Shown here in pieces: positions 1,986 through 30,258 of a stretch of 38,292 nt of DNA (within the stretch, counting starts at the first letter, position 1; each line of letters starts with the position of its first letter). The notes under the pieces were generated by a model. That model saw nothing but the letters and a program-made list of their open reading frames with translations. It was not told the DNA's origin and made no database searches. Source of the DNA: a filamentous cyanobacterium CCP3 (GTDB lineage: Bacteria; Cyanobacteriota; Cyanobacteriia; Phormidesmidales; Phormidesmidaceae); assembly GCA_003022385.1 (NCBI GenBank), contig PYGV01000017.1, forward strand, positions 1-38,292. The letters are read 5' to 3'. The position numbers and the translations under genes were made by a program.

Positions 1986-2167
1986 ATCCGGAAAAATTTG
2001 AAATTCTTACGGAGTCTTTAGAGGCTGCTAAACCCCAATAAAATCCGCAGGGAGCAGCTTATGTTTCCGGAACGGGCGGCTTAGGCTTGTAAAGGAAGAT
2101 AACAATTTAACCAATTAACTCTGCAAAGGGCTTTGACGGTCGTTTAGATCTCAGTCTCTTTGCCCTG
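1986..2167 (+). promoter_or_regulatory. repeated intergenic element, copy A (upstream of sat)
   Basis: This is the first of three related intergenic blocks; the others are at 7656-7856 and 9356-9536. Each begins with ATCCGGAA (here 1986-1993) and ends with a strongly conserved core containing CTTTGAYGGTCG, then TTAGATCTCAGTCTCTTT (core here 2128-2167). Copies A and B also share a 20-base identical run at 2086-2105 and 7757-7776. The start-to-core distance is 142, 160 and 146 bases in A, B and C. Copy A ends about 170 bases before the sat start codon. It could be a promoter region, a structured 5' leader or a dispersed repeat. All three are on the same strand, ahead of a same-strand gene. Confidence 0.7.
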
Positions 2168-2336
2168 AGCCAGAGTCTGAGAGGTCTTTAGCCAGATTGC
2201 AAGAAAAAATCTAGAGTTTTTTGGGGTTCTTTAAACCTAGTTTTTAAATTTTCTGAACTTAATTGGGTTTGAGATCACTTCGAAAAGTTGTTATTCCTAA
2301 GCTTTGTTGAGTAAAGAAAAGGAGACTATCTTGAGT

Positions 2337-3512
2337 ATGGCTGAGCTAACTATTTCTCCCCACGGTGGGACGTTGATAAATCGAATTGCTACGGCAGAGC
2401 AGCGTCAAACATTTATTGAAAAAGCTAATTCTTTACCACGTGTTCAGCTCGATGCGCGATCGCAGTCTGATCTAGAAATGATTGCGATCGGTGCCTTTAG
2501 CCCCCTGACCGGGTTTATGAACCAGGCCGACTACAACCGCGTGGTCAACGATATGTACCTGTCCAACGGCTTGCCCTGGTCAGTGCCCATTACCCTGTCG
2601 GTTGCCCAGGTCGAGGCAGATCGCCTGAGCGAAGGCAGTCTAGTGCGCCTCGACAATGCCCATGGTGAATTTATTGGTGTTCTTGAGCTAACCGAAAAGT
2701 ACACCTACGACAAGATCCACGAAGCTCAGCAGGTTTACCGCACTACCGAAGACAATCACCCCGGTGTCGCTGTTGTTTACGCCCAGGGCGAGGTCAACCT
2801 GGCCGGGCCGGTGTGGTTGCTGAATCGACAGCCCCACCCCCAATTCCCTCAGTACCAAATTGACCCAGCGGCATCGCGGGCCATGTTTGAGGCCAAGGGC
2901 TGGAAGACGATCGTGGGCTTTCAAACCCGCAACCCCATTCACCGTGCCCACGAGTACATTCAAAAATGCGCCCTGGAAACCGTGGATGGGCTGTTTTTAC
3001 ATCCGCTGGTGGGGGCGACCAAAAGCGATGACATTCCCGCCGATGTGCGCATGCGCTGCTACGAAATTTTGCTGGAAAAATACTTCCCTGAAGACCGGGT
3101 GATTTTGGCGATTAACCCAGCCGCCATGCGCTACGCCGGGCCGCGCGAAGCCATTTTCCACGCCCTGGTGCGCAAAAACTACGGCTGCACCCACTTTATT
3201 GTGGGTCGCGACCATGCCGGGGTAGGTGATTACTACGGCACTTACGACGCCCAGCACATCTTCGACGAGTTTAAGCCGGGGGAACTGGGGATTGTGCCGA
3301 TGAAGTTTGAGCACGCCTTTTACTGCACCCGTACCGAGCAGATGGCCACTAGCAAAACCAGCTCTAGCGCCCCTGAGGAACGAGTTCACCTCTCGGGTAC
3401 CAAAGTGCGAGAAATGCTGCGCCGAGGCGAGCTGCCGCCGCCACAGTTCTCTCGCCCTGAGGTGGCGGCTGAGCTGGCTCGGGCCATGCAGGTGCCTGCC
3501 GGGGTGAGCTAA
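2337..3512 (+). CDS. sat: ATP sulfurylase (sulfate adenylyltransferase)
   Basis: Converts sulfate and ATP to adenosine 5'-phosphosulfate (APS) and pyrophosphate, the first step of sulfate activation in the cytoplasm. The single-chain Sat/Met3-type enzyme is recognised by the nucleotide-binding motif [11 protein letters not shown] (residues 196-206) and GRDHAGVG (290-297). The length of about 391 residues fits. Start choice: a GGAG at 2321-2324 precedes TTG 2331 by 6 bases and ATG 2337 by 12. I favour the ATG, which gives [13 protein letters not shown]; the frame is open back to a TTG at 2304. The next genes are cysC, a sulfate-type permease and a PAP phosphatase, so it probably supplies PAPS for sulfation of the polysaccharide as well as for assimilation. 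Its 3' end is duplicated downstream (3613-3681), and repeat element A lies upstream. Confidence 0.96.
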
Positions 3513-3681
3513 AAACCCCTCGTCTGAACCTGTAGGTTGGGTGGAGCGCAGCGAAACCCAACGCAACTAACCCCTGTTGGGTTCCACGTTGTTTCACCCA
3601 ACCTACCCCTAACTGAGGTGGCGGCTGAGCTGGATCGGGCCATGCAGGTGCCTGCTGGAGTGAGTTAAGAGCCCCTCGTCT
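3457..3681 (+). repeat. 69-bp direct duplication of the sat 3' end
   Basis: Bases 3457-3525, covering the last 18 codons of sat and the following bases, recur at 3613-3681 with 6 differences. The second copy still reads [17 protein letters not shown] and a stop codon. The two copies are separated by a palindromic repeat at 3532-3606, which may have inserted into, or driven, the duplication. Confidence 0.9.
3532..3606. repeat. palindromic dispersed repeat (REP/MITE-like)
   Basis: Perfect 12-base terminal arms GTAGGTTGGGTG (3532-3543) and CACCCAACCTAC (3595-3606) enclose an inner pair AACCCAAC / GTTGGGTT. This GTAGGTTGGGT-type element is, from memory, widely dispersed in cyanobacterial genomes. 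It separates the real sat terminus from its duplicated copy. Confidence 0.7.
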
Positions 3682-3690
3682 AAGGCTGAT

Positions 3691-3707
3691 GGTGGGCAGT
3701 GCCCACC
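3691..3707. repeat. 17-base palindrome before cysC
   Basis: GGTGGGCA and TGCCCACC flank one G. It belongs to a common type of small dispersed palindrome. A GTG inside it (3699) would extend the cysC frame, but coding from inside a repeat is unlikely, which supports the later ATG. Confidence 0.55.
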
Positions 3708-3734
3708 CTACTGTTCAATACTGTGAGAAATCCT

Positions 3735-4286
3735 ATGCAACAGCGTGGTGTAACGGTTTGGTTTACCGGCTTGAGCGGTGCTGGAAAGTCTACGATCGCC
3801 CAGGCCCTGGCCGAAAAGCTCAAGCGCGAGGGCTATCGCCTGGAAATTTTAGACGGCGACATTGTGCGCACCAATTTAACGAAAGGGCTGGGGTTTAGCC
3901 GAGAAGATCGCGACGAAAATATTCGCCGTATTGGCTTTGTTTCGCACCTGCTAACTCGCAACGGCGTCATTGTACTGGTGTCGGCGATTTCGCCCTATCG
4001 GGAGGTGCGCGAGGAAGTCCGCGATCGCATCGGCGATTTTCTAGAGGTCTATGTCAGCGCTCCGCTCAATGTCTGTGAAGAGCGCGACGTGAAAGGACTG
4101 TACAAGCGGGCCAGAGCCGGTGAGATCAAAGGCTTTACCGGTATTGATGACCCCTATGAAGCCCCTTTGAACCCCGAAATCAATTGCGAAACGCATCTAG
4201 AAACCTTGGATGAAAGCGTCGCGAAGGTGATGGCGGCGCTGCAGCCCTACCTACAAACCCACCGACGGGCTGAGGCTTTGGTTTAA
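3735..4286 (+). CDS. cysC: adenylyl-sulfate kinase (APS kinase)
   Basis: Phosphorylates APS at the 3' position to give PAPS, the sulfate donor for sulfotransferases and for PAPS reductase. The P-loop GLSGAGKST is at residues 12-20, LDGD at 39-42 and the APS-binding stretch [13 protein letters not shown] at 53-65. The 183-residue length is normal for a stand-alone CysC. I chose the ATG at 3735 because [19 protein letters not shown] is the usual start of the family; GTG codons at 3699 and 3723 are in frame but lie in or next to a palindromic repeat. The ribosome binding site is weak. It lies 222 bases after sat with a duplication between them, so co-transcription is likely but not certain. Confidence 0.96.
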
Positions 4287-4340
4287 GCCCCGTTCTCCCG
4301 GCGATTAAAGCTGCGCTTTTTCCCAGAGTCTGCTCCACGT

Positions 4341-4514
4341 GTAGGGTGCATTCTCGGCCCAGAAATCCGCGCAAGGCTTCGCAGATTCTGCATCGGGGCC
4401 GCAATGCACCGCTTACGGTATCAAGATGCTCGCTTGATGTAAGCGGTGCGTTACGGCCAGGGCAGAGAATTTGCATGTTTGCAGAGTCAGTCTAGGGCCG
4501 GGAACGCACCCTAC
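4341..4514. repeat. nested palindromic element (MITE-like), 174 bp
   Basis: Outer arms GTAGGGTGCATTCTCGGCCC (4341-4360) and its near-complement at 4495-4514 match at 17 of 20 positions. Inside is a second hairpin: AATGCACCGCTTAC (4403-4416) pairs with 4439-4452, continued by ATCAAG / CTTGAT. No protein is encoded. It fills most of the 328-base gap between cysC and the permease. The GTAGGGTGCGTT motif is typical of small cyanobacterial dispersed repeats. Confidence 0.75.
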
Positions 4515-4515
4515 G

Positions 4516-4521
4516 TATAAT
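4516..4521 (+). promoter_or_regulatory. candidate -10 box for the permease gene
   Basis: A perfect TATAAT lies directly after the palindromic element and 94 bases before the permease start codon. No convincing -35 box is seen at the usual spacing, so this is only a candidate. Confidence 0.3.
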
Positions 4522-4614
4522 CGAGCTTTCGGCGGGTTCGATGGAACAAAATCTCTCTGTTTGATGTGTCTTGAAAATAGTCTTTAGTCATTTATTAAAG
4601 CGAGACATTGCACT

Positions 4615-6513
4615 ATGCAGATCAGGCAGATCAGGCAATGGCGACTGGCATTTAAACCCAACTCGTATGGATTATGGCTAGCCCTGGCTGGGGTGGGGCT
4701 GGCGGTGGTTGCCCTGGGGCACCTAAACCCAGGCGCATCGTTAGGACTGTCGTGGCAGGGCTGGTTGACTATCGCTACCATCGCCCTCACCTTTGGAGCC
4801 AATGCCCTCACCAACCTGCCTGCGGAGGTCGTTTTTTTGGGTGGGTTGGCGGTGTTATTCCTTACCGGTATTTTAGATTCTGATACCGCCCTGGCTGGGT
4901 TTAGCAACGCCGGTATGATTACGGTAGGCGTTCTCTATGTTGTCGTAGCTGGGCTGCAGCAAACCGGTGGTTTGACCTGGGTGTCGCAGCAGGTGCTGGG
5001 CCTGCCCAAAAGTCAAAAGCGGGCGATGGTGCGGCTGATGGTGCCAGTGATGGGCCTCAGCGCGGTGTTGAACAACACCCCAGTGGTGGCAATGTTTATT
5101 CCGGTAGTGGGGGACTGGTGCCGCAAGCTCAAGATTAACCCGTCTAAGCTGATGATTCCGCTCAGCTATGCCTCGATATTTGGCGGGGTATGTACGTTGA
5201 TTGGTACCAGCACCAACCTGGTGGTCAACGGCTTGCTGATCGATGCCACTGGCAGCGGTATGGGGCTGCTGGATATTGCCTGGGTGGGGGTGCCCTGTGC
5301 GATCGCGGCCTTTTTATTTTTACTGCTGACCCAGCGCTGGCTGTTGCCCAATCGCAAGTCGGCCTTTAACACCAGCGATGACCCTCGCCAGTACACCCTG
5401 GAGATGACCGTTCCTGCCGGCAGCCCAATGGCCGGTAAAACAGTAGAGCAAGCGGGGCTGCGCCACTTGCCGGGGCTGTACCTGGCCGAAATTGTGCGCG
5501 GTCCGCAGGTTATTCCTGCCGTTGGCCCCAAAGAAGTGCTGCGCGACAACGATCAGCTGGTGTTTGTGGGGGCGATCGATTCGATTGTAGATTTGCATCG
5601 GCTGCGGGGTCTACAACCGGCCACCGACCAGGTGTTTAAGCTCGACACTCCCCGCCTGGGCCGGTGCCTGACCGAAGCGGTGGTGTCAGATACTTGCCCC
5701 ATGGTGGGTAAAACCATCCGCGAAGGAGAATTTCGCAGCCGCTATAACGCGGTGGTGCTAGCGGTAGCCCGTAACGGCGAGCGGCTGCGGGGCAAAATTG
5801 GCGATATCCGCCTGCGGGCGGGGGATGCCCTGCTGCTAGAGACCCATCCGGTCTTTGAAACCCAGTACCGCTCGTCCAAAGACTTTTACCTGGTCAGCAC
5901 GGTACCCGATTCGACCCCCATTAACCACGATAAGGCCCCCGTGGCCTTGTTCACCATGCTGGGCATGATTGTGCTGGCCTCCTTTGGCTGGATGTCGATG
6001 TTGCACGCGGCGATTTTGGCGGCCGTGGTGATGGTGGCTACGGGCTGCTGCTCGCCCCACAAAGCCTTGGCCAATGTCGAGTGGTCGGTACTGCTGGTGA
6101 TTGCGGCCTCCCTGGGGCTGGGGCAAGCGATGGATTCGACTGGGGTAGCGGCTGCTATGGCGACGGCCCTGCTGGGGCCAGCCCACAGTAACCCCTGGAT
6201 TGCCCTGGTGCTGGTCTATGGGGTCACTACGCTGCTAACTGAGATTGTTACCAACAATGCGGCAGCGGCACTGATTTTTCCGGTGGCGATCGCCCTGGCC
6301 AAGAGCTTAGGCGTCGATTTTATGCCTTTTGTGATTGCCATAATGATTGGGGCGTCGGCTAGCTTTGCTACCCCGATTGGTTATCAGACCAACCTGATGG
6401 TCTATGGCCCGGGCGGATACCGCTTTACTGACTTTTTGCGGGTTGGAGTTCCGATCAATCTGTTGTTTTGGCTAATTACGGTCATCATTACGCCCCTGGC
6501 CTTTCCGTTTTAG
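4615..6513 (+). CDS. SLC13/DASS-family permease with two RCK_C domains, probably sulfate uptake
   Basis: This inner-membrane anion symporter has two transport halves split by a cytoplasmic insert. The N-terminal half (about residues 1-240) carries NNTPVV at 153-158 and GTSTNLVVNG at 197-206. Two TrkA-C/RCK_C domains follow (about 258-330 and 345-430), each with a PMAGKT or PMVGKT motif. The C-terminal half (about 445-632) carries GYQTNLMVYG near 589. This architecture matches cyanobacterial SLC13 permeases and the algal SLT sulfate transporters. Its place between cysC and cysQ supports sulfate as substrate, but the family also moves dicarboxylates and other anions. The 632-residue length is normal. 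It probably imports the sulfate used by Sat. Confidence 0.9.
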   Translation: MQIRQIRQWRLAFKPNSYGLWLALAGVGLAVVALGHLNPGASLGLSWQGWLTIATIALTFGANALTNLPAEVVFLGGLAVLFLTGILDSDTALAGFSNAGMITVGVLYVVVAGLQQTGGLTWVSQQVLGLPKSQKRAMVRLMVPVMGLSAVLNNTPVVAMFIPVVGDWCRKLKINPSKLMIPLSYASIFGGVCTLIGTSTNLVVNGLLIDATGSGMGLLDIAWVGVPCAIAAFLFLLLTQRWLLPNRKSAFNTSDDPRQYTLEMTVPAGSPMAGKTVEQAGLRHLPGLYLAEIVRGPQVIPAVGPKEVLRDNDQLVFVGAIDSIVDLHRLRGLQPATDQVFKLDTPRLGRCLTEAVVSDTCPMVGKTIREGEFRSRYNAVVLAVARNGERLRGKIGDIRLRAGDALLLETHPVFETQYRSSKDFYLVSTVPDSTPINHDKAPVALFTMLGMIVLASFGWMSMLHAAILAAVVMVATGCCSPHKALANVEWSVLLVIAASLGLGQAMDSTGVAAAMATALLGPAHSNPWIALVLVYGVTTLLTEIVTNNAAAALIFPVAIALAKSLGVDFMPFVIAIMIGASASFATPIGYQTNLMVYGPGGYRFTDFLRVGVPINLLFWLITVIITPLAFPF

Positions 6514-6565
6514 CCCGCCACAATGGCTTGGCGAATTGTCCCTATCGTTACTAACTTGAGGTTTT

Positions 6566-7525
6566 ATGGCTTACGAAAAAGAGAAGCAAGTTGCTATTGA
6601 AGCTGTTCGCCAGGCGGCTAAGCTTTGCGAAGCGGTGCGGTTGGAGATGGTGCCGGAGGCGATCGAGAAACAGGATAAAAGCCCGGTAACCGTCGCCGAT
6701 TACGGCTCGCAAGCGATTATTTGTAGGGCATTAGCGGCGGCCTTTCCGCAAGACGCTGTGGTGGGTGAAGAAGACGCCGCCACTCTCAGCGAGCCAGCCC
6801 TAGCACCAGTGTTGGCCAGCGTTACTGCTCAGGTCAATCGCGTGATTGCCGGAGCCACCGACAACGAGGTGCTGAGCTGGATTAACCACGGCAATGGCGA
6901 GGTCACGTCTCGCTACTGGACCCTAGACCCCATTGACGGGACAAAGGGCTTTTTGCGGGGTGATCAGTATGCGATCGCCCTGGCTTTAGTCGTCGATGGC
7001 GACCTGAAAGTCGGGGTGCTGGGCTGCCCCTTTCTCAGCTTTGACGGCGAAGAACCCGGTCTAATGTTCGTGGCGGTGCGGGGCGAAGGCACCGTGGTGG
7101 TGCCCCTCGCTGGTGGTACACCCAAACCGATTCACGTGGCTAACGCAACCGATGCGGAGCGCCTGCGCTTTGTCGAAAGCGTTGAGTCGGGCCACGGCGA
7201 CCAGGCCCAGCAAAAGGCGGTTGCGGCAGCGGCGGGGATTATCGCCCCATCCATCCGCATGGATAGCCAGGCTAAGTACGCAGCTGTTGCTGCTGGGCAA
7301 GCGGCGCTGTACCTGCGCCTGCCCTCGCCTAAAACCCCTGACTACCGAGAAAAGATTTGGGACCACGCAGCGGGCACCCTGGTGGTTCAAGAGGCGGGGG
7401 GAAAGGTTACCGATATGCACGGCAACCCTTTAGACTTTGCTAAATCGGCCCGGCTGGAGCACAACCGAGGGGTTGTTGTGAGCAATGGGGCTATCCACGA
7501 CGAGGTGCTCAAGGCCTTGCAGTAG
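6566..7525 (+). CDS. cysQ: 3'(2'),5'-bisphosphate nucleotidase (PAP phosphatase, Hal2-type)
   Basis: Hydrolyses 3'-phosphoadenosine 5'-phosphate (PAP), the product left by sulfotransferases, to AMP and phosphate, and may also act on PAPS. It belongs to the lithium-sensitive, metal-dependent phosphatase superfamily, shown by GEED (67-70), WTLDPIDGTKGF (118-129) and WDHAAG (265-270), which carry the metal-binding acids. At 319 residues it fits the longer yeast/plant Hal2-like branch rather than short CysQ proteins. It starts 52 bases after the permease gene, so the two are probably one operon. It completes the set of sulfate uptake, activation and by-product removal. Confidence 0.94.
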   Translation: MAYEKEKQVAIEAVRQAAKLCEAVRLEMVPEAIEKQDKSPVTVADYGSQAIICRALAAAFPQDAVVGEEDAATLSEPALAPVLASVTAQVNRVIAGATDNEVLSWINHGNGEVTSRYWTLDPIDGTKGFLRGDQYAIALALVVDGDLKVGVLGCPFLSFDGEEPGLMFVAVRGEGTVVVPLAGGTPKPIHVANATDAERLRFVESVESGHGDQAQQKAVAAAAGIIAPSIRMDSQAKYAAVAAGQAALYLRLPSPKTPDYREKIWDHAAGTLVVQEAGGKVTDMHGNPLDFAKSARLEHNRGVVVSNGAIHDEVLKALQ

Positions 7526-7545
7526 TGGCTGCTCCTGGTTTTACG

Positions 7546-7607
7546 GCTCTGCCGCTCATGTTAGGAGGCAGAGCTGCTGACGAGCATTCCAACGCAGAGC
7601 GCTGGAA
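7546..7607. terminator. paired hairpins after cysQ
   Basis: A perfect 8-base stem GCTCTGCC (7546-7553) / GGCAGAGC (7567-7574) is followed by TTCCAACGC (7587-7595) / GCGCTGGAA (7599-7607) with one mismatch. The second is a familiar small cyanobacterial repeat. They lie just after the cysQ stop codon and probably end or protect that transcript, but there is no long T-run. Confidence 0.45.
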
Positions 7608-7655
7608 CGAGAGGCCGCGAAAACCGGGCTCCTGTATCGGCGTTCTAGATATTCA

Positions 7656-7856
7656 ATCCGGAAGTTTTTGTTCTTTTTGAATAATTTTTACCCAAACCTA
7701 AACCCTAGGGAAAGTACGGAGGCTTTAGGCAAGGTATCCGGAGGGGGCGCTTTAGCCTTGTAAAGGAAGATAACAACCTGAGCACATTCCCTTTCTGAAA
7801 GGGTCTTTTGCAGAGGGGCTTTGACGGTCGCCTTAGATCTCAGTCTCTTTGCCCTG
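7656..7856 (+). promoter_or_regulatory. repeated intergenic element, copy B
   Basis: This is the second copy of the element described at 1986-2167. It starts with ATCCGGAA (7656-7663), shares the identical 20-base run (7757-7776) with copy A, and ends with the conserved core at 7816-7856, one base longer than in A. It is followed by the 21-bp repeat array and then, about 500 bases on, by the small gene at 8362. I see no convincing open reading frame inside it. Confidence 0.7.
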
Positions 7857-7949
7857 TTCTTGAACGCTTTGAAGCGATCGGGCAGTACAAGGGATAGGTG
7901 TACCTGAATATTGCTTTTGCTAGGGGTAGCGTTTAGATTGCCTAAATGA

Positions 7950-8181
7950 TTTAGAGAAAGACTACAGAGGTGCAAAGGACAGATTGAAGCATTGTTTGTT
8001 TGGCTCATAGGTTATTTTGCGGGCTGTAAGCGTCTCTTTAGATGGCTTAGACGCTGCTAAGGAAGACTAGAGCTGTACAAAGAAAGCAGTAAGGGTTTCA
8101 AAGGAAGGCTTATAGGTTGAAAAGAAAGCCATAAGCGTTTTAGAGAGAGGTTGAAGCGTTGCAAAGAAAGCTTTAATACTT
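7950..8181 (+). repeat. array of degenerate 21-22 bp tandem repeats
   Basis: Five consecutive units are clear: 8076-8097 (22 bases), then 8098-8118, 8119-8139, 8140-8160 and 8161-8181 (21 each). The loose consensus is AAAGAAAGC, a few bases, then TAAGCGTT. Looser units of the same size and polarity extend back to about 7950. The units are purine-rich on the plus strand. Stop codons in the repeat argue against a protein repeat. A 21-base spacing is two helical turns, so bound proteins would sit on one face of the DNA. Alternatively it is a repeated motif in a leader RNA. Confidence 0.6.
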
Positions 8182-8361
8182 TTTAGCAATGGCTGAGTGG
8201 CTTGAGAGAATTTTCGGATCTATCTGGGGTTTAACCACAAAATAGCTTCAAAGGGATCGTAATTTATACGGTGATGGCTGGCCTGGGCGTTTGGCTACAG
8301 TGTGGAGGTTGGAACTCCTACCAACACTGTTGTTTAGTAATGCCAGGGGCATTTACGGTAT

Positions 8362-8706
8362 ATGAGACGAAAAAGGTTGTCTATCAAGTTACACAAGGCT
8401 GAGGTGCGAGCCGCATCCATGGACTCGATTGACCAGAAGCTAGATTTGGGGAATGGACAAACGTTAGAGCTGTATTGGGAAGCGATTAACAGTCTGCGGA
8501 TGAAGCAGCAGGAGTATAATACGCTGCTATCGAAGGTAGATAGCTTGTACAACGATCTGCTGGCGGATGAGCGGGCGCTGGGCGAAATGTCGGAGCACAT
8601 GCTGAGCGGGGTAAAGGTCAAGTTTGGCCGCGACAGCGTGGAGTATGAAATGGCGGGCGGGGTAAGGCGGTCTGAGCGGAAGCGACCCCAGCGCAAGACG
8701 GCGTGA
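8362..8706 (+). CDS. small conserved protein of unknown function
   Basis: A 114-residue soluble protein with no signal peptide or membrane segment. The first ~20 residues are basic (MRRKRLSIKLHKAEVR), the middle (about 35-80) is likely helical or coiled coil, and the C-terminus carries KFGRDSVEYEMAGGVRRSER. I recognise that last motif from unnamed cyanobacterial proteins but know no function. The ATG at 8362 gives the longest frame; an ATG at 8419 is an alternative. A strong terminator follows at 8748. Element B and the repeat array precede it, and its 3' end plus terminator are duplicated in decayed form at 9145-9320. It lies between sulfate activation and polysaccharide genes, so a regulatory or assembly role is possible, but this is a guess. 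Confidence 0.7.
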   Translation: MRRKRLSIKLHKAEVRAASMDSIDQKLDLGNGQTLELYWEAINSLRMKQQEYNTLLSKVDSLYNDLLADERALGEMSEHMLSGVKVKFGRDSVEYEMAGGVRRSERKRPQRKTA

Positions 8707-8747
8707 TGGGTTAAACCGATAGTTACGATTAAAAATAGGAGCAAGAA

Positions 8748-8778
8748 GCGATCGCATGGGTTCATGCGATCGCTTTTT
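8748..8778 (+). terminator. strong intrinsic terminator built from HIP1 sequence
   Basis: Perfect 11-base stem GCGATCGCATG (8748-8758) / CATGCGATCGC (8763-8773), loop GGTT, then TTTTT. It ends the transcript of the small gene at 8362. Confidence 0.9.
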
Positions 8779-8860
8779 GGTTAGTGCTGACCTTATGGGC
8801 TATGACAGCAATCGTCGGCGGTGCTGAATACAGGTATGGGCCAACAATTCAAAGCCTCTC

Positions 8861-8888
8861 GTAGGGGCAAACGGCCATTTGCCTCTAC
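8861..8888. repeat. 28-bp palindromic dispersed repeat
   Basis: GTAGGGGCAAACGG pairs with CCATTTGCCTCTAC with two mismatches. It resembles the GTAGGGGCGAACGGCC-type palindromes scattered through cyanobacterial genomes. Confidence 0.6.
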
Positions 8889-8905
8889 CCAAATTCCTGC
8901 TCGCA

Positions 8906-9151
8906 ATGACCTTGACTAGAGGTCGGTTGGTGCCTCAAAGCGACCCGCCCCGGTCGCCTCGGGAAACGCTGCCGACGATGTATGATTTGCCGAGTGAGTT
9001 TCCGAAGGAACCGGGGTTGCCGGACGAATTTCATGATTTATAGCTCCAGTTGTTGAGCCGCACGTTGACTTTATCAGGCTACCGTCGTGGAGAGTGGTTT
9101 GCCGCTAGCGATCTGAATGCCTGTTACGATGTGCAGCATCCGATGGGGTAA
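8906..9151 (+). pseudogene. N-terminal remnant of a Uma2-family (DUF820) gene
   Basis: From ATG 8906 the frame gives the start typical of one Uma2 group, RETLPTMYDLPSE then GLPDEFHDL. It meets a stop (TAG, 9041-9043), then continues in frame as LQLLSRTLTLSGY and FAASDLNACYDVQHP before TAA at 9149-9151. In intact relatives a glutamine follows HDL and the protein runs on well past YDVQHP. So this is about the first 80 codons, with an internal stop and no nuclease core. It is joined directly to a copy of another gene's 3' end. Confidence 0.75.
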
Positions 9152-9246
9152 AGGTAAGGTTTGGTCGCGATAGTGTGGAGTATGAAATGGCGAGCAAGGT
9201 AAGGCAATCGGAGTGCAAGCGGCTCCAGCGAAAGGCGGTGAGTTAG
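9145..9246 (+). pseudogene. decayed copy of the 3' end of the gene at 8362
   Basis: In frame from 9148 it reads VKVRFGRDSVEYEMA, then SKVRQSECKRLQRKAVS and a stop, matching the last ~30 codons of the small gene at 8362 with several substitutions. The junction with the Uma2 remnant is at GGGGTAAAGGT, present in both. The terminator following the intact gene also has a decayed counterpart here. Confidence 0.85.
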
Positions 9247-9290
9247 GCGCAGGGGCTAAAGCTCTAGAGAGAAACTGAATAGAATCTGAG

Positions 9291-9320
9291 GCGATCGTGT
9301 GGATTCATAAGATCGCTTTT
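9291..9320 (+). terminator. decayed copy of the 8748 terminator
   Basis: GCGATC (9291-9296) and GATCGC (9311-9316) followed by TTTT match the outer part of the terminator at 8748-8778; the inner stem has mutated. This shows that the duplication of the upstream gene extended through its terminator. Confidence 0.6.
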
Positions 9321-9355
9321 CTTATGAAAAGCAAGGCTGATCAATAGCTGAGCCC

Positions 9356-9536
9356 ATCCGGAAGATTTGCTGATTTCTTAGGGAGACCTTACAAAGCCCT
9401 AAACATTGGGGCAAAGCTAGGGTCGCTGGGTTAGGTATCTAAACTGAGATTTTACACTTGGGAGAGAAATCATGTTCAAACGTTTTACCGCTTTGTTGAG
9501 TGGGCTTTGATGGTCGGCTTAGATCTCAGTCTCTTT
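9356..9536 (+). promoter_or_regulatory. repeated intergenic element, copy C (upstream of the sugar transferase)
   Basis: This is the third copy. It starts ATCCGGAA (9356-9363) and ends with the core at 9502-9536, which includes CTTTGATGGTCGGC and TTAGATCTCAGTCTCTTT. The interior is less like A and B than they are like each other. The core ends 164 bases before the initiating sugar transferase gene, a distance close to that of copy A from sat (169 bases). Confidence 0.65.
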
Positions 9537-9700: not shown

Positions 9701-11149
9701 ATGTCTAGTCTCAATGTGCTGAACCCAGTTGAGGGAAAGCCAATTCTTGACTTGCGACAGTCGCAGTATCCTAATTCGTTTCGTAAAGGGGTTCGGTTTG
9801 TTTGGTTTCGGCTAAGTAGCTTGCTGCTTGCCGATGCTGCCGCGATAACTGCGGCCTGGCTAGGGGCCAGCGCGGTGTCTATGCACTCGGTTGCCATGGT
9901 TGATTTAGCCAGCAGCCTAAACAGTGCAATACCCGTTTTGGCAATTGGTTATAGCATTTTTTCGACTGGAAAGTTTTACCAAAGTGGTACATCTCGCAAA
10001 GACTATTTGGGTCTGGTCAGTGCCAGTATAATGCTGGCTATAACGGTTTTTATACTGTTCAAATATGCCCAAATCTTTGGCCCTGGGCTGACAGAAATTT
10101 ACTTTCTGGTATTTGGGGTTCTGGCTGCTGTACTCATACCTTTGAATCGATTTGTCGTTGATATTGCAACGAATAAGTTGCGTCAGCTTGGGTTGGGTCT
10201 GTACCCAGTGTTTGTAATTGCCGACGCCCCTAAACAAAAAGGTGCCGCTAACCTAATTAAGAGCGAAGGGCACTACAAAGTTTTAGGTATGTTAGATGCC
10301 AAAGCTCTCGATAGGAACCAGCGAGAGTCGACGTTCGAAACTCTCAACCGCCTGGGGATTATTGAGGTGTTTGTAGACTGGGAGGCAATTGAGAATCGCT
10401 TGTTTATCTGTGGGTTGTTTCAGTCTGAAGGGTATACTCTGCGGATTTTGCCTAATGATGAGCTGCCTCCTCCAAGCACAATTACCTACACTGCGGTGGG
10501 TGAAAAGCTTTGCCTGTCGTTTACCCCGTTTGTGTTGTCGGGTCTGGAGTTTTGGACCAAGCGAGCGTTTGATGTGGTGGCAGCTAGTGTTGCAGTAGTG
10601 CTGGCTTCGCCGATTTATCTGCTGATTGCTTTGCTAATCTACATAGACTCACCGGGGCCAATCTTTTACAAGCAAACTCGCATTGGCTTGAAGAACAAGC
10701 CGTTTAAGGTTTGGAAGTTTCGCACGATGGTGCCCAATGCTGACAAGCTACAAAAAGAGCTGGAGGCGAAGAACGAAACTAAGGATGGGGTGCTGTTTAA
10801 GATTAAAGACGACCCCCGCATTACGCGGGTGGGTAAGGTGCTGCGGGCCTATAGTCTGGATGAACTACCTCAGCTGTTTAACGTAGTGCTGGGCGAAATG
10901 AGCCTGGTGGGACCAAGGCCGTTGCCGCTGCGCGATGTGGAGAAGTTTTCGCAGCATCACCACATTCGGCAGGAGGTGTTGCCGGGGATTACGGGGCTGT
11001 GGCAAATTTCGGGGCGATCGGACATTGTCGATTTTGAGGAGGCGTATCAGCTTGATTTGACTTACATTACCCGCTGGTCAATTTGGCTGGATTTGCAGAT
11101 CTTGTTTAAGACGGTGGGAGTGGTGCTGAAAAAGTCGGGGGCTTATTGA
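9701..11149 (+). CDS. polyprenyl-phosphate sugar-1-phosphate transferase that starts EPS repeat units
   Basis: Transfers a sugar-1-phosphate from a nucleotide sugar to undecaprenyl phosphate in the inner membrane, the first committed step of repeat-unit assembly. The 482-residue protein has an N-terminal membrane domain (about 35-165), a central linker domain (about 165-280), and a C-terminal bacterial sugar transferase domain from 287. That domain carries KFRTM (339-343), DELPQL (387-392), VGPRP (403-407) and LPGITGLWQISGRS (427-440). This is the WbaP/WcaJ/EpsE-type layout; the sugar cannot be told. It is preceded by repeat element C. A broken copy of its middle part lies at 12101-12326. It is GC-richer than the glycosyltransferase genes downstream. 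Confidence 0.95.
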   Translation: MSSLNVLNPVEGKPILDLRQSQYPNSFRKGVRFVWFRLSSLLLADAAAITAAWLGASAVSMHSVAMVDLASSLNSAIPVLAIGYSIFSTGKFYQSGTSRKDYLGLVSASIMLAITVFILFKYAQIFGPGLTEIYFLVFGVLAAVLIPLNRFVVDIATNKLRQLGLGLYPVFVIADAPKQKGAANLIKSEGHYKVLGMLDAKALDRNQRESTFETLNRLGIIEVFVDWEAIENRLFICGLFQSEGYTLRILPNDELPPPSTITYTAVGEKLCLSFTPFVLSGLEFWTKRAFDVVAASVAVVLASPIYLLIALLIYIDSPGPIFYKQTRIGLKNKPFKVWKFRTMVPNADKLQKELEAKNETKDGVLFKIKDDPRITRVGKVLRAYSLDELPQLFNVVLGEMSLVGPRPLPLRDVEKFSQHHHIRQEVLPGITGLWQISGRSDIVDFEEAYQLDLTYITRWSIWLDLQILFKTVGVVLKKSGAY

Positions 11150-29436: not shown

Positions 29437-30258
29437 ATGACAACGCTAAAACTTCGCCCCTTGGCTCCGCCCCCGCCCATCACTTGGGAAAAGCTGCCAG
29501 CAGATTTCCCTCTGCCTGATGACCCAGTTGAAAGCAACCTTCAACCCCTACTGGCCGCAGCCCTGCGAGAAGCCCTGGAACTAGCTGGTCTAATTGTTGA
29601 GTCAGCGCTAATTGCGTCTAATTTTGGCCTCTGTGCCACAGTGGGCGACAAAACTATTGTCAAAGCCCCCGACTGGGTTTACGTGCGATCGGTTTTCCCC
29701 CTGCCAGAGGGGAGTATTCGGCGCAGCTACACGCCCCACGTTGAGGGTGAAGTGCCCACCCTGGTCATAGAGTTTGTTTCAGAAACCGAGGGGGGTGAGT
29801 ATTCGATCAATCCTCACTTTCCCTACGGCAAGTGGTATTTCTATGAGCGCATTCTTAAAGTACCGCTCTACGGCATTTTTCATCCCAAGACGGGCGAGTT
29901 AGATCTATATCGCTTGGTCAACGGGCAGTACGAGCAGCAGATTGCCAATCACAATCAGCGCTACTGGCTCGAAGAAATGGGCTTGCATTTAGGAGTATGG
30001 TGGGGGCAAAAGGCTGACATGAAAGCCTTTTGGCTGCGCTGGTGGGATCAAGCTGAAACCCTGCTGCCGTGGGGCAGCGAACAGATTGACCAAGAGCGCC
30101 AGCGAGCCGAGCAAGAGCGCCAGCGAGCCGAGCAGGCAGAGGGGCAACTCGTGCAGGTGGTAAAATCGCTCCTAGCCCAGGGTATGCCCACGAACCAGAT
30201 AGCAGAGCTGGTGGGCCTGTCGGTAGCCCAGGTTGAAGAGCTAGCCGCTGAGGCTTGA
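29437..30258 (+). CDS. Uma2-family protein (DUF820, PD-(D/E)XK-like) with coiled-coil tail
   Basis: A 273-residue protein. The Uma2 nuclease-like core covers about 35-190, with VKAPDWVYV (the predicted catalytic aspartate) and PTLVIEFVSET (the predicted glutamate). A charged coiled coil follows at about 213-233, where the heptad QERQRAE is duplicated. The last segment, LLAQGMPTNQIAELVGLSVAQVEEL, looks like a small helix-turn-helix of the kind often found at the end of such proteins. GAGGAG lies about 12 bases before the ATG. Uma2 proteins are highly amplified in cyanobacteria; the biological role is not established. Confidence 0.9.
   Translation: MTTLKLRPLAPPPPITWEKLPADFPLPDDPVESNLQPLLAAALREALELAGLIVESALIASNFGLCATVGDKTIVKAPDWVYVRSVFPLPEGSIRRSYTPHVEGEVPTLVIEFVSETEGGEYSINPHFPYGKWYFYERILKVPLYGIFHPKTGELDLYRLVNGQYEQQIANHNQRYWLEEMGLHLGVWWGQKADMKAFWLRWWDQAETLLPWGSEQIDQERQRAEQERQRAEQAEGQLVQVVKSLLAQGMPTNQIAELVGLSVAQVEELAAEA
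30091..30132 (+). repeat. perfect 21-bp tandem repeat inside the Uma2 gene
   Basis: Two identical 21-base units (30091-30111 and 30112-30132) each encode QERQRAE, one coiled-coil heptad. Such repeats can change copy number without breaking the frame. Confidence 0.9.

Follow-up and report, generated by a model that had tools for sequence, protein, structure and literature searches.

The 38,292-nucleotide contig PYGV01000017.1 of the filamentous cyanobacterium CCP3 (assembly GCA_003022385.1), referred to here as the window, carries three related intergenic blocks, copies A, B and C, whose core forms a hairpin that recurs across the cyanobacteria, mostly ahead of polysaccharide genes. A preliminary description, made from the letters of the window, had noticed that the three blocks share their first bases and a nearly identical core, and both observations hold. 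The sequence ATCCGGAA begins all blocks (1986, 7656 and 9356, + strand), and the 18-mer TTAGATCTCAGTCTCTTT is identical in them (2144, 7833 and 9519, + strand). The genes downstream, namely sat, a gene for an uncharacterised 114-amino-acid protein and a Bac_transf sugar transferase gene, lie on the same strand as the blocks, as had been stated. Each block is composed of two modules, an upstream part marked by TCCGGA and the downstream core. In its full form the hairpin part comprises P1 (the core), a second helix P2 and a 3′ AGGUGUG motif, in this order. All three blocks possess the upstream module and P1, but P2 is clear in B alone. Copy B is the complete type among the window copies, while A and C retain the upstream module and hairpin P1, C with a single TCCGGA. 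The features of the region are as follows.

1986..2122, + strand: upstream module of copy A, with TCCGGA at 1987 and 2066 (79 bp apart) ahead of a conserved TTGTAAAGGAAGATAACAA stretch
2123..2163, + strand: hairpin P1 (core) of copy A, predicted leader of sat, without a clear P2
2337..3512, + strand: sat, ATP sulfurylase (PF01747), the first gene past copy A, with its ATG at 2337
3735-4286: cysC, downstream of sat
4615-6513: CitMHS-type transporter gene, downstream of cysC
6566-7525: Inositol_P-family (CysQ-like) gene, after the CitMHS-type transporter gene
7656..7809, + strand: upstream module of copy B, with TCCGGA at 7657 and 7737 (80 bp apart)
7810..7852, + strand: hairpin P1 of copy B, with bulges UU and C and the basal stem GCAGAG/CUCUUUGC
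7852..7904, + strand: P2 region of copy B (GCCC/GGGC) and 3′ motif GGAUAGGUGUACC
8362..8706, + strand: uncharacterised 114-amino-acid gene behind copy B; it is conserved within the genus and has no Pfam family
8746..8778, + strand: strong intrinsic-terminator-like hairpin 3′ of the 114-amino-acid gene (−29.9 kcal/mol, z −8.8)
9289..9322, + strand: second terminator-like hairpin, directly 5′ of copy C
9356..9497, + strand: upstream module of copy C, with TCCGGA at 9357 alone; the second site is degenerate (TATCTAAA)
9498..9534, + strand: hairpin P1 of copy C, predicted as the leader of the polysaccharide cluster and its initiating sugar transferase gene
9701..11149, + strand: Bac_transf (PF02397) initiating sugar transferase gene, heading a co-directional polysaccharide cluster

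The cluster continues in the same direction with genes for Wzy, two sulfotransferases, glycosyltransferases, WecG and MBOAT. Between sat and cysC, the 3′ end of sat (3457-3540) recurs at 3613-3696 with 86% identity, a partial duplication.

The hairpin is not confined to the window. A scan of named genomes with the pattern GGCTTYGAYGGTCN{2,6}GATCTCAGTC returned at least 114 stretches. Only one of the 80 listed falls outside the cyanobacteria; the remainder come from Nostoc, Anabaena, Calothrix, Scytonema, Fischerella, Moorena, Spirulina, Leptolyngbya and others. The element is cyanobacteria-wide and present in 111 of 388 genomes. As the exact core pattern was used to find them, the invariance of the core among the first 82 matches is no evidence. 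Covariation was counted in 89 copies found by a covariance model, R1, whose own rows were pattern-found. R1 comprises 36 of 46 rows, locus L066 and nine window-type rows of CCP3's own genus having been dropped. It includes three canonical own-genus rows, L032 (contig C139 of the host genome), L074 and L076, none of them window-type, and omission of these three yields R2 with 33 rows from other genera only. Both models recover the window copies well above the next match. Copies B, A and C score 36.0, 28.3 (2128-2157) and 26.0 bits with R1 (next match 8.8) and 31.6, 26.7 and 22.4 bits with R2 (next match 11.3). R1 aligns A and C across P1 alone (positions 10-39 and 6-41, respectively); R2 spans the full length in A, and again positions 6-41 alone in C.

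The covariance fold proposed in the preliminary description gave a clear result: 94.5% of the cells pair in the 89 copies, and double changes occur at 12 of 22 pairs. The alignment contains 78 double-change cells, compared to 23.4 ± 3.9 in shuffles (0 of 500 reached this number) and at most 29 in controls with slid partners. P1 has the form 5′ GGAG-GGGCU[UY]GA[Y]GGUC-loop-GAUCUCAGUCC-CUCC 3′. It carries two small bulges made of pyrimidines, the bases of which are conserved (U in 88, Y in 87 and Y in 86 of the 89 copies). Its basal stem varies between GGAG/CUCC and GAAG/CUUC and reads GCAAAG/CUUUGC in CCP3's own genus. P2 (ACCUUC/GGAGGU) shows double changes at six of its seven pairs. Moreover, two G-U pairs are retained in P1 (74/89 and 86/89 copies). 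Since a DNA palindrome has no need of G-U pairs, their retention argues for a structure read as RNA. With its conserved covarying hairpins, its strand and position, its polysaccharide context and its co-occurrence with one protein, the element is very probably a conserved leader RNA of polysaccharide genes and is presumably transcribed. That it had not been recognised as a known RNA family was borne out, as the window and 12 further loci had no match in Rfam 15 at the gathering score, nor had the stretches L164:1480-1640 and window 7640-8400 at E values up to 1.

In the host genome (5.78 Mb, 519 contigs) a search for the core with up to two mismatches, as had been suggested, found only the three window sites. 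Three mismatches added two sites, both without the GGGCTTTGACGGTC half, and none for the reversed pattern. In related genomes, the search that the preliminary description had called for found the core (at most one mismatch) in 12 of 25 other genomes of the genus and, with the window's own genome counted, in 15 of 57 overall, the two outside the genus resembling chance. When the flanks were aligned within the genus, the conserved stretch began at the first TCCGGA, included the core and reached a AGGTGTNCC motif past it. A second genome, G010, shares the whole block before sat (L021; core at 3559 with 19.1 bits, preceded by TCCGGA at 3418 and 3498 and followed by sat at 3768), so that this placement recurs. 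Two further features of copy B have counterparts in the genus. The leader past it (7860-8200) contains repeats of a AAAGAAAGC..TATAAGC-like unit, and other loci of the genus show them too. Directly 5′ of its P1 lies a CCCTTTCTGAAAGGG hairpin (7789-7803), found in several genus loci where the stem letters differ yet appear paired.

The upstream module raises the possibility that the conserved object is a DNA operator or promoter, with pairs of TCCGGA and the imperfect palindrome P1 read by a transcription factor. The hexamer occurs five times in the window compared to 6.3 expected from shuffles, which is not unusual as a count, but all five sites, at the positions given above, fall inside the blocks. 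In the 12 genus loci, 20 of 46 TCCGGA sites lie within 200 bp 5′ of the core, and a pair 80-81 bp apart is present in eight. Paired TCCGGA is, however, restricted to window-type copies, whereas P1 is phylum-wide. Within 200 nucleotides upstream of the 88 other model-found copies, one TCCGGA was found in six cases and two in none. P1 itself has G-U pairs, strand-specific bulges and a fixed orientation, all of which speak against an operator. The own-genus copies may well have their promoter in the TCCGGA module, yet this would not explain P1, and we consider the operator reading of the element quite improbable.

The genomic position of the element is largely uniform. The next open reading frame (ORF) of at least 150 amino acids lies on the same strand after 98 of 103 copies and on the opposite strand after three, with none in view for two, and in none of the 103 cases does P1 fall within an ORF of at least 200 amino acids. 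Genes run in one direction for 8 kb or more past 49 of 55 copies, as opposed to 12 of 65 control points in random regions. Forty larger loci had been picked from the listed matches without knowledge of their genes, the criteria being a long contig or the presence of several copies. Pfam families were counted in 122 downstream genes from 49 of the 89 copies, two of which have no qualifying gene; the count leaves aside the short 3-kb loci, those of the genus, the window itself and L032. They include 16 ABC_tran, 13 ABC2_membrane, nine GDP_Man_Dehyd, seven Wzt_C, six GT2 and five Polysacc_synt genes. The 104 control genes contain three ABC_tran; the other five families are absent from the 25 control families listed, in which families matched by at least two proteins come first.

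Polysaccharide genes also follow most of those copies that stand apart from the gene of the approximately 141-amino-acid protein described below. Eighteen such non-genus copies were examined, counting genes of at least 150 amino acids. The first gene is of polysaccharide type in ten: an epimerase (L185), glycosyltransferases (twice in L195, and L222), Wzm (L188), Wza (L217) and SIS-CBS proteins in four different genomes (L190, L192, L193 and L194), which by inference are KdsD-like. In three more it is the second gene, a flippase gene after Uma2 (L198, L200) or an ABC exporter gene after DUF29 (L202). Further loci carry polysaccharide genes such as Polysacc_synt_2 (L246), ABC2_membrane (L248) and an ArnEF-like transporter with GT2 (L249), or other genes, namely aspartyl-protease-like (L252), Uma2 (L247) and Peptidase_M23 (L256). 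Uma2-family genes thus adjoin the element in L198, L200 and L247, and a Uma2-family gene (putative endonuclease) lies in the window at 29437-30258. In the preliminary description, matches confined to regions ahead of exopolysaccharide and sulfate genes, with covarying helices or a mapped 5′ end, were to support a regulon. What follows the element is mostly polysaccharide genes, with sat in the host and in G010, and these genes and the covarying helices speak for a regulon.

A functionless dispersed repeat or mobile-element remnant, which had been considered as an alternative from the outset, would account for three copies within 7.5 kb, two of them reduced. In addition, a piece from the 3′ portion of the 114-amino-acid gene (8608-8710) recurs with 80% identity at 9145-9247, directly before copy C, indicating that the region of copies B and C is partly duplicated. 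Against a mere repeat stand the covariation, the strand bias with its strong link to gene starts, the gene context, the absence of P1 from long ORFs, the phylum-wide conservation and a pattern search of viral contigs without a match. Genome G000 carries just four copies, where such a repeat would have called for a large number across the genome. Moreover, the sole inverted repeat of at least 25 nucleotides in the window lies at 3532-3606, away from the blocks (shorter terminal repeats were not tested). We regard this explanation as extremely improbable.

An uncharacterised protein family usually accompanies the RNA. In 64 of the 82 pattern matches, one of which is a chance match, a gene for a protein of about 141 amino acids lies downstream on the same strand at a distance of 39-1006 nucleotides, most commonly around 55 nucleotides from the core; in one further match it is located 6.3 kb upstream. 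Fifty-six of the 89 model-found copies have this gene within 1.2 kb. The protein had no match above cut-off in Pfam and NCBIfam, and no NusG match. It has 1560 homologs at E values up to 1e-3, among them alr5224 of Nostoc PCC 7120, and the best 120 of these are hypothetical or unnamed except for one WWE label. A table of genes with predicted SphR sites lists alr5224 (PMC1906773). The N-terminus is rich in arginine, with 7-10 R/K within the first 18 residues, and is followed by a Cys/His motif. C19, H22, C24, C75 and C78 vary little or not at all, with C19, C75 and C78 invariant in 29 of 29 sequences.

Among the 388 genomes, 105 contain RNA and protein, six RNA only, 36 protein only and 241 neither, an odds ratio of 117 from raw counts. 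Counted by genus, the numbers are 58, 2, 20 and 79, respectively. Ninety-nine of the 104 genomes with a strong protein match carry the RNA. Of 14 genomes with at least three RNA matches, RNAs exceed protein genes in 11, equal them in one and are fewer in two. Thus, one protein would often serve several leaders, and the extra copies before other polysaccharide genes suggest action in trans. The host encodes the protein on C139, behind a canonical element of its own (61.7 bits with R1, 48.3 with R2) that precedes genes for a Wzt-type exporter, a methyltransferase and a glycosyltransferase. A second protein gene is located on C353, and searches of C353:1-12000 with R1 and R2 gave no match. On this evidence, drawn from gene order and occurrence, the protein is probably the partner of the element. 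Two observations concern its distribution. In nine own-genus loci (L022-L027, L029-L031) a copy of the approximately 141-amino-acid gene, for which no element of its own was detected, is located 2.7-8.7 kb upstream of the element and on the same strand, and genomes of family f2 contain divergent homologs (E mostly around 1e-30) and no R1 match.

The frequent company of this protein bears on the idea of a riboswitch-like RNA whose ligand would be a sugar nucleotide or some other metabolite and for which the protein gene would be one target among others. Conserved bulges and a cis placement ahead of biosynthesis genes would fit such a switch, and the epsC and wcaG RNAs have been named riboswitch candidates (PMC2864571). 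A ligand switch has no need of a protein, however, and the same one is encoded in 105 of 111 genomes with the RNA. In addition, P1 is a short hairpin whose variable loop spans few bases, and it offers no multi-helix pocket. A riboswitch is therefore improbable.

Four features led us to infer that P1 is bound by the protein and that binding controls elongation: the long one-way gene runs, the combination of an arginine-rich segment with a bulged helix, the presence of several leaders per protein gene, and a terminator in CCP3's own genus. Thirteen own-genus loci were examined for the latter. A strong intrinsic terminator stands 3′ of the small gene in all eight in which the 114-amino-acid gene was located (L020 also has this gene, which the locating motif missed); of 50 shuffled sequences per locus, 0-5 produced one. 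Past the terminator, homologs of glycosyltransferase or ABC-type genes follow in seven of the eight loci; the contig of the eighth (L021) ends. The 114-amino-acid gene may not be limited to the genus. At L091 (Tolypothrix) an ORF 1262 nucleotides past the element matches the protein (phmmer, E 9e-30).

According to the proposed mechanism, P1 would be transcribed as part of a leader RNA at the head of polysaccharide clusters. The small arginine-rich protein, usually encoded beside the element, would bind the bulged P1, and the bound protein would let RNA polymerase run through the long polysaccharide operons, a form of antitermination or elongation control. One protein could act in trans on several leaders per genome. 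In the host this factor would be encoded elsewhere, on C139 and C353, and through copy A it would bring sat-cysC under the same control as the sulfated-polysaccharide cluster behind copy C. Protein-dependent elongation control via a leader RNA is the best explanation overall that we can offer, although our confidence in it is evenly divided. The same balance applies to the output in particular, which may or may not be transcription elongation.

Several results weigh against this mechanism or the data behind it. Outside the genus, only 3 of 55 gaps that follow the protein gene contain a terminator, compared to 6 of 81 control gaps, and the window region shows no excess of terminator-like sites (16 versus 12.7 ± 3.9). 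The control for the gene runs consisted of random regions, unmatched to polysaccharide clusters without the element, and the co-occurrence figures ignore kinship. Five of the 18 copies apart from the protein gene show no polysaccharide-type gene in the first two positions scanned, where DUF2887, a protein without a family or one not scanned singly was seen, or an epimerase only farther away. The 36 genomes with protein but no detected RNA contain mostly weak homologs, five of them being among the 104 genomes with a strong match, and six genomes show the reverse. Folding of single sequences gave mixed results (z −0.93 for B, +0.40 for C139, −2.65 for A and −2.27 for C), and the minimum-energy fold of copy A differs from the full P1. 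Copies A and C have no clear P2. Finally, in the common arrangement the 3′ strand of P2 contains the GGAGG Shine-Dalgarno sequence of the protein gene.

This last point leads to a post-transcriptional alternative, in which the protein would set its own translation via a leader whose P2 hides the Shine-Dalgarno sequence, and would bind the other leaders to alter how polysaccharide mRNAs are translated or how stable they are. It fits that P2 pairs CCUUC with GGAGG directly 5′ of the start codon of the protein gene, that P2 covaries, and that the last 22 or so nucleotides at the 3′ side of the RNA match overlap the beginning of the protein match. But P2 is retained where it lies 368-536 nucleotides before the protein gene start (L055, L083, L100), and it is not clear in copies A and C. 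These distant copies, together with A and C, make hiding of the Shine-Dalgarno sequence unlikely as the general function and let P1 appear as the general part of the element. We judge the post-transcriptional alternative rather unlikely.

If elongation control through P1 is correct, one factor in CCP3 would, judging from the placement of copies A and C, couple the supply of 3′-phosphoadenosine-5′-phosphosulfate (PAPS) to the synthesis of a sulfated polysaccharide. An RNA-protein pair in over a quarter of 388 genomes would then provide a handle on polysaccharide production across the phylum, and a function would be suggested for a protein family with 1560 homologs. The finding also provides a ready-made predictor of the regulon. 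Among the literature matches listed, we found no description of leader-RNA control of cyanobacterial surface polysaccharides. The system would be an independent addition to polysaccharide operons controlled from leader elements such as JUMPstart and EAR.

The preliminary description had likened the blocks, as a possible shared promoter or leader, to the JUMPstart/ops leaders of enterobacteria, and covariation, strand and polysaccharide genes support the leader idea well. In the JUMPstart/ops-RfaH system (RF01707), too, the element is placed on the coding strand upstream of polysaccharide genes. The ops octamer, GGCGGTAG, does not occur in the window. RF01707 and RF01735, the Bacillales EAR/epsC family, had no match in the window and the 12 loci, or in the two stretches searched at E values up to 1. 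JUMPstart is situated in 5′ untranslated regions of polysaccharide genes and has been linked to altered transcription elongation (PMC2864571). In contrast to RfaH, the candidate partner of the cyanobacterial element is not of the NusG family by Pfam and is usually encoded adjoining the element. EAR/epsC resembles our element as a structured 5′ leader RNA of exopolysaccharide genes, and its antitermination activity was reported in the same source as a personal communication (PMC2864571). The cyanobacterial element differs in that a dedicated protein co-occurs with it.

Closest in layout is LoaP of Bacillus velezensis, a dedicated protein which binds a small hairpin in the dfn leader and causes terminator readthrough before long operons (PMC12691694). 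The own-genus order of element, small gene and terminator is reminiscent of this arrangement. However, LoaP is a specialised NusG-type protein and its hairpin is UNCG-capped, whereas the protein described here has an arginine-rich N-terminus, a Cys/His motif and no Pfam family. In Tat/TAR and lambda N/boxB, an arginine-rich segment and a bulged or looped RNA hairpin control transcription elongation. The cyanobacterial pair shares the arginine-rich segment and the bulged helix (no sequence relation was sought), but it is bacterial, chromosomal and linked to polysaccharides. Sulfated-polysaccharide genes of Synechocystis are controlled by the DNA-binding protein XssQ via the operator AAGTTXXAC (PMC8205485). 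XssQ thus shares the type of target genes in cyanobacteria but acts through DNA, and its operator is not enriched in the window, with three sites found compared to 5.0 expected. Taken together, we tentatively propose, with slightly more doubt than conviction, a phylum-wide counterpart of RfaH/ops, in which a previously undescribed arginine-rich Cys/His protein, often encoded within the operon itself, would read a bulged leader hairpin, license RNA polymerase to transcribe surface-polysaccharide operons and act in trans on several leaders of a genome, in CCP3 also that of sulfate activation.

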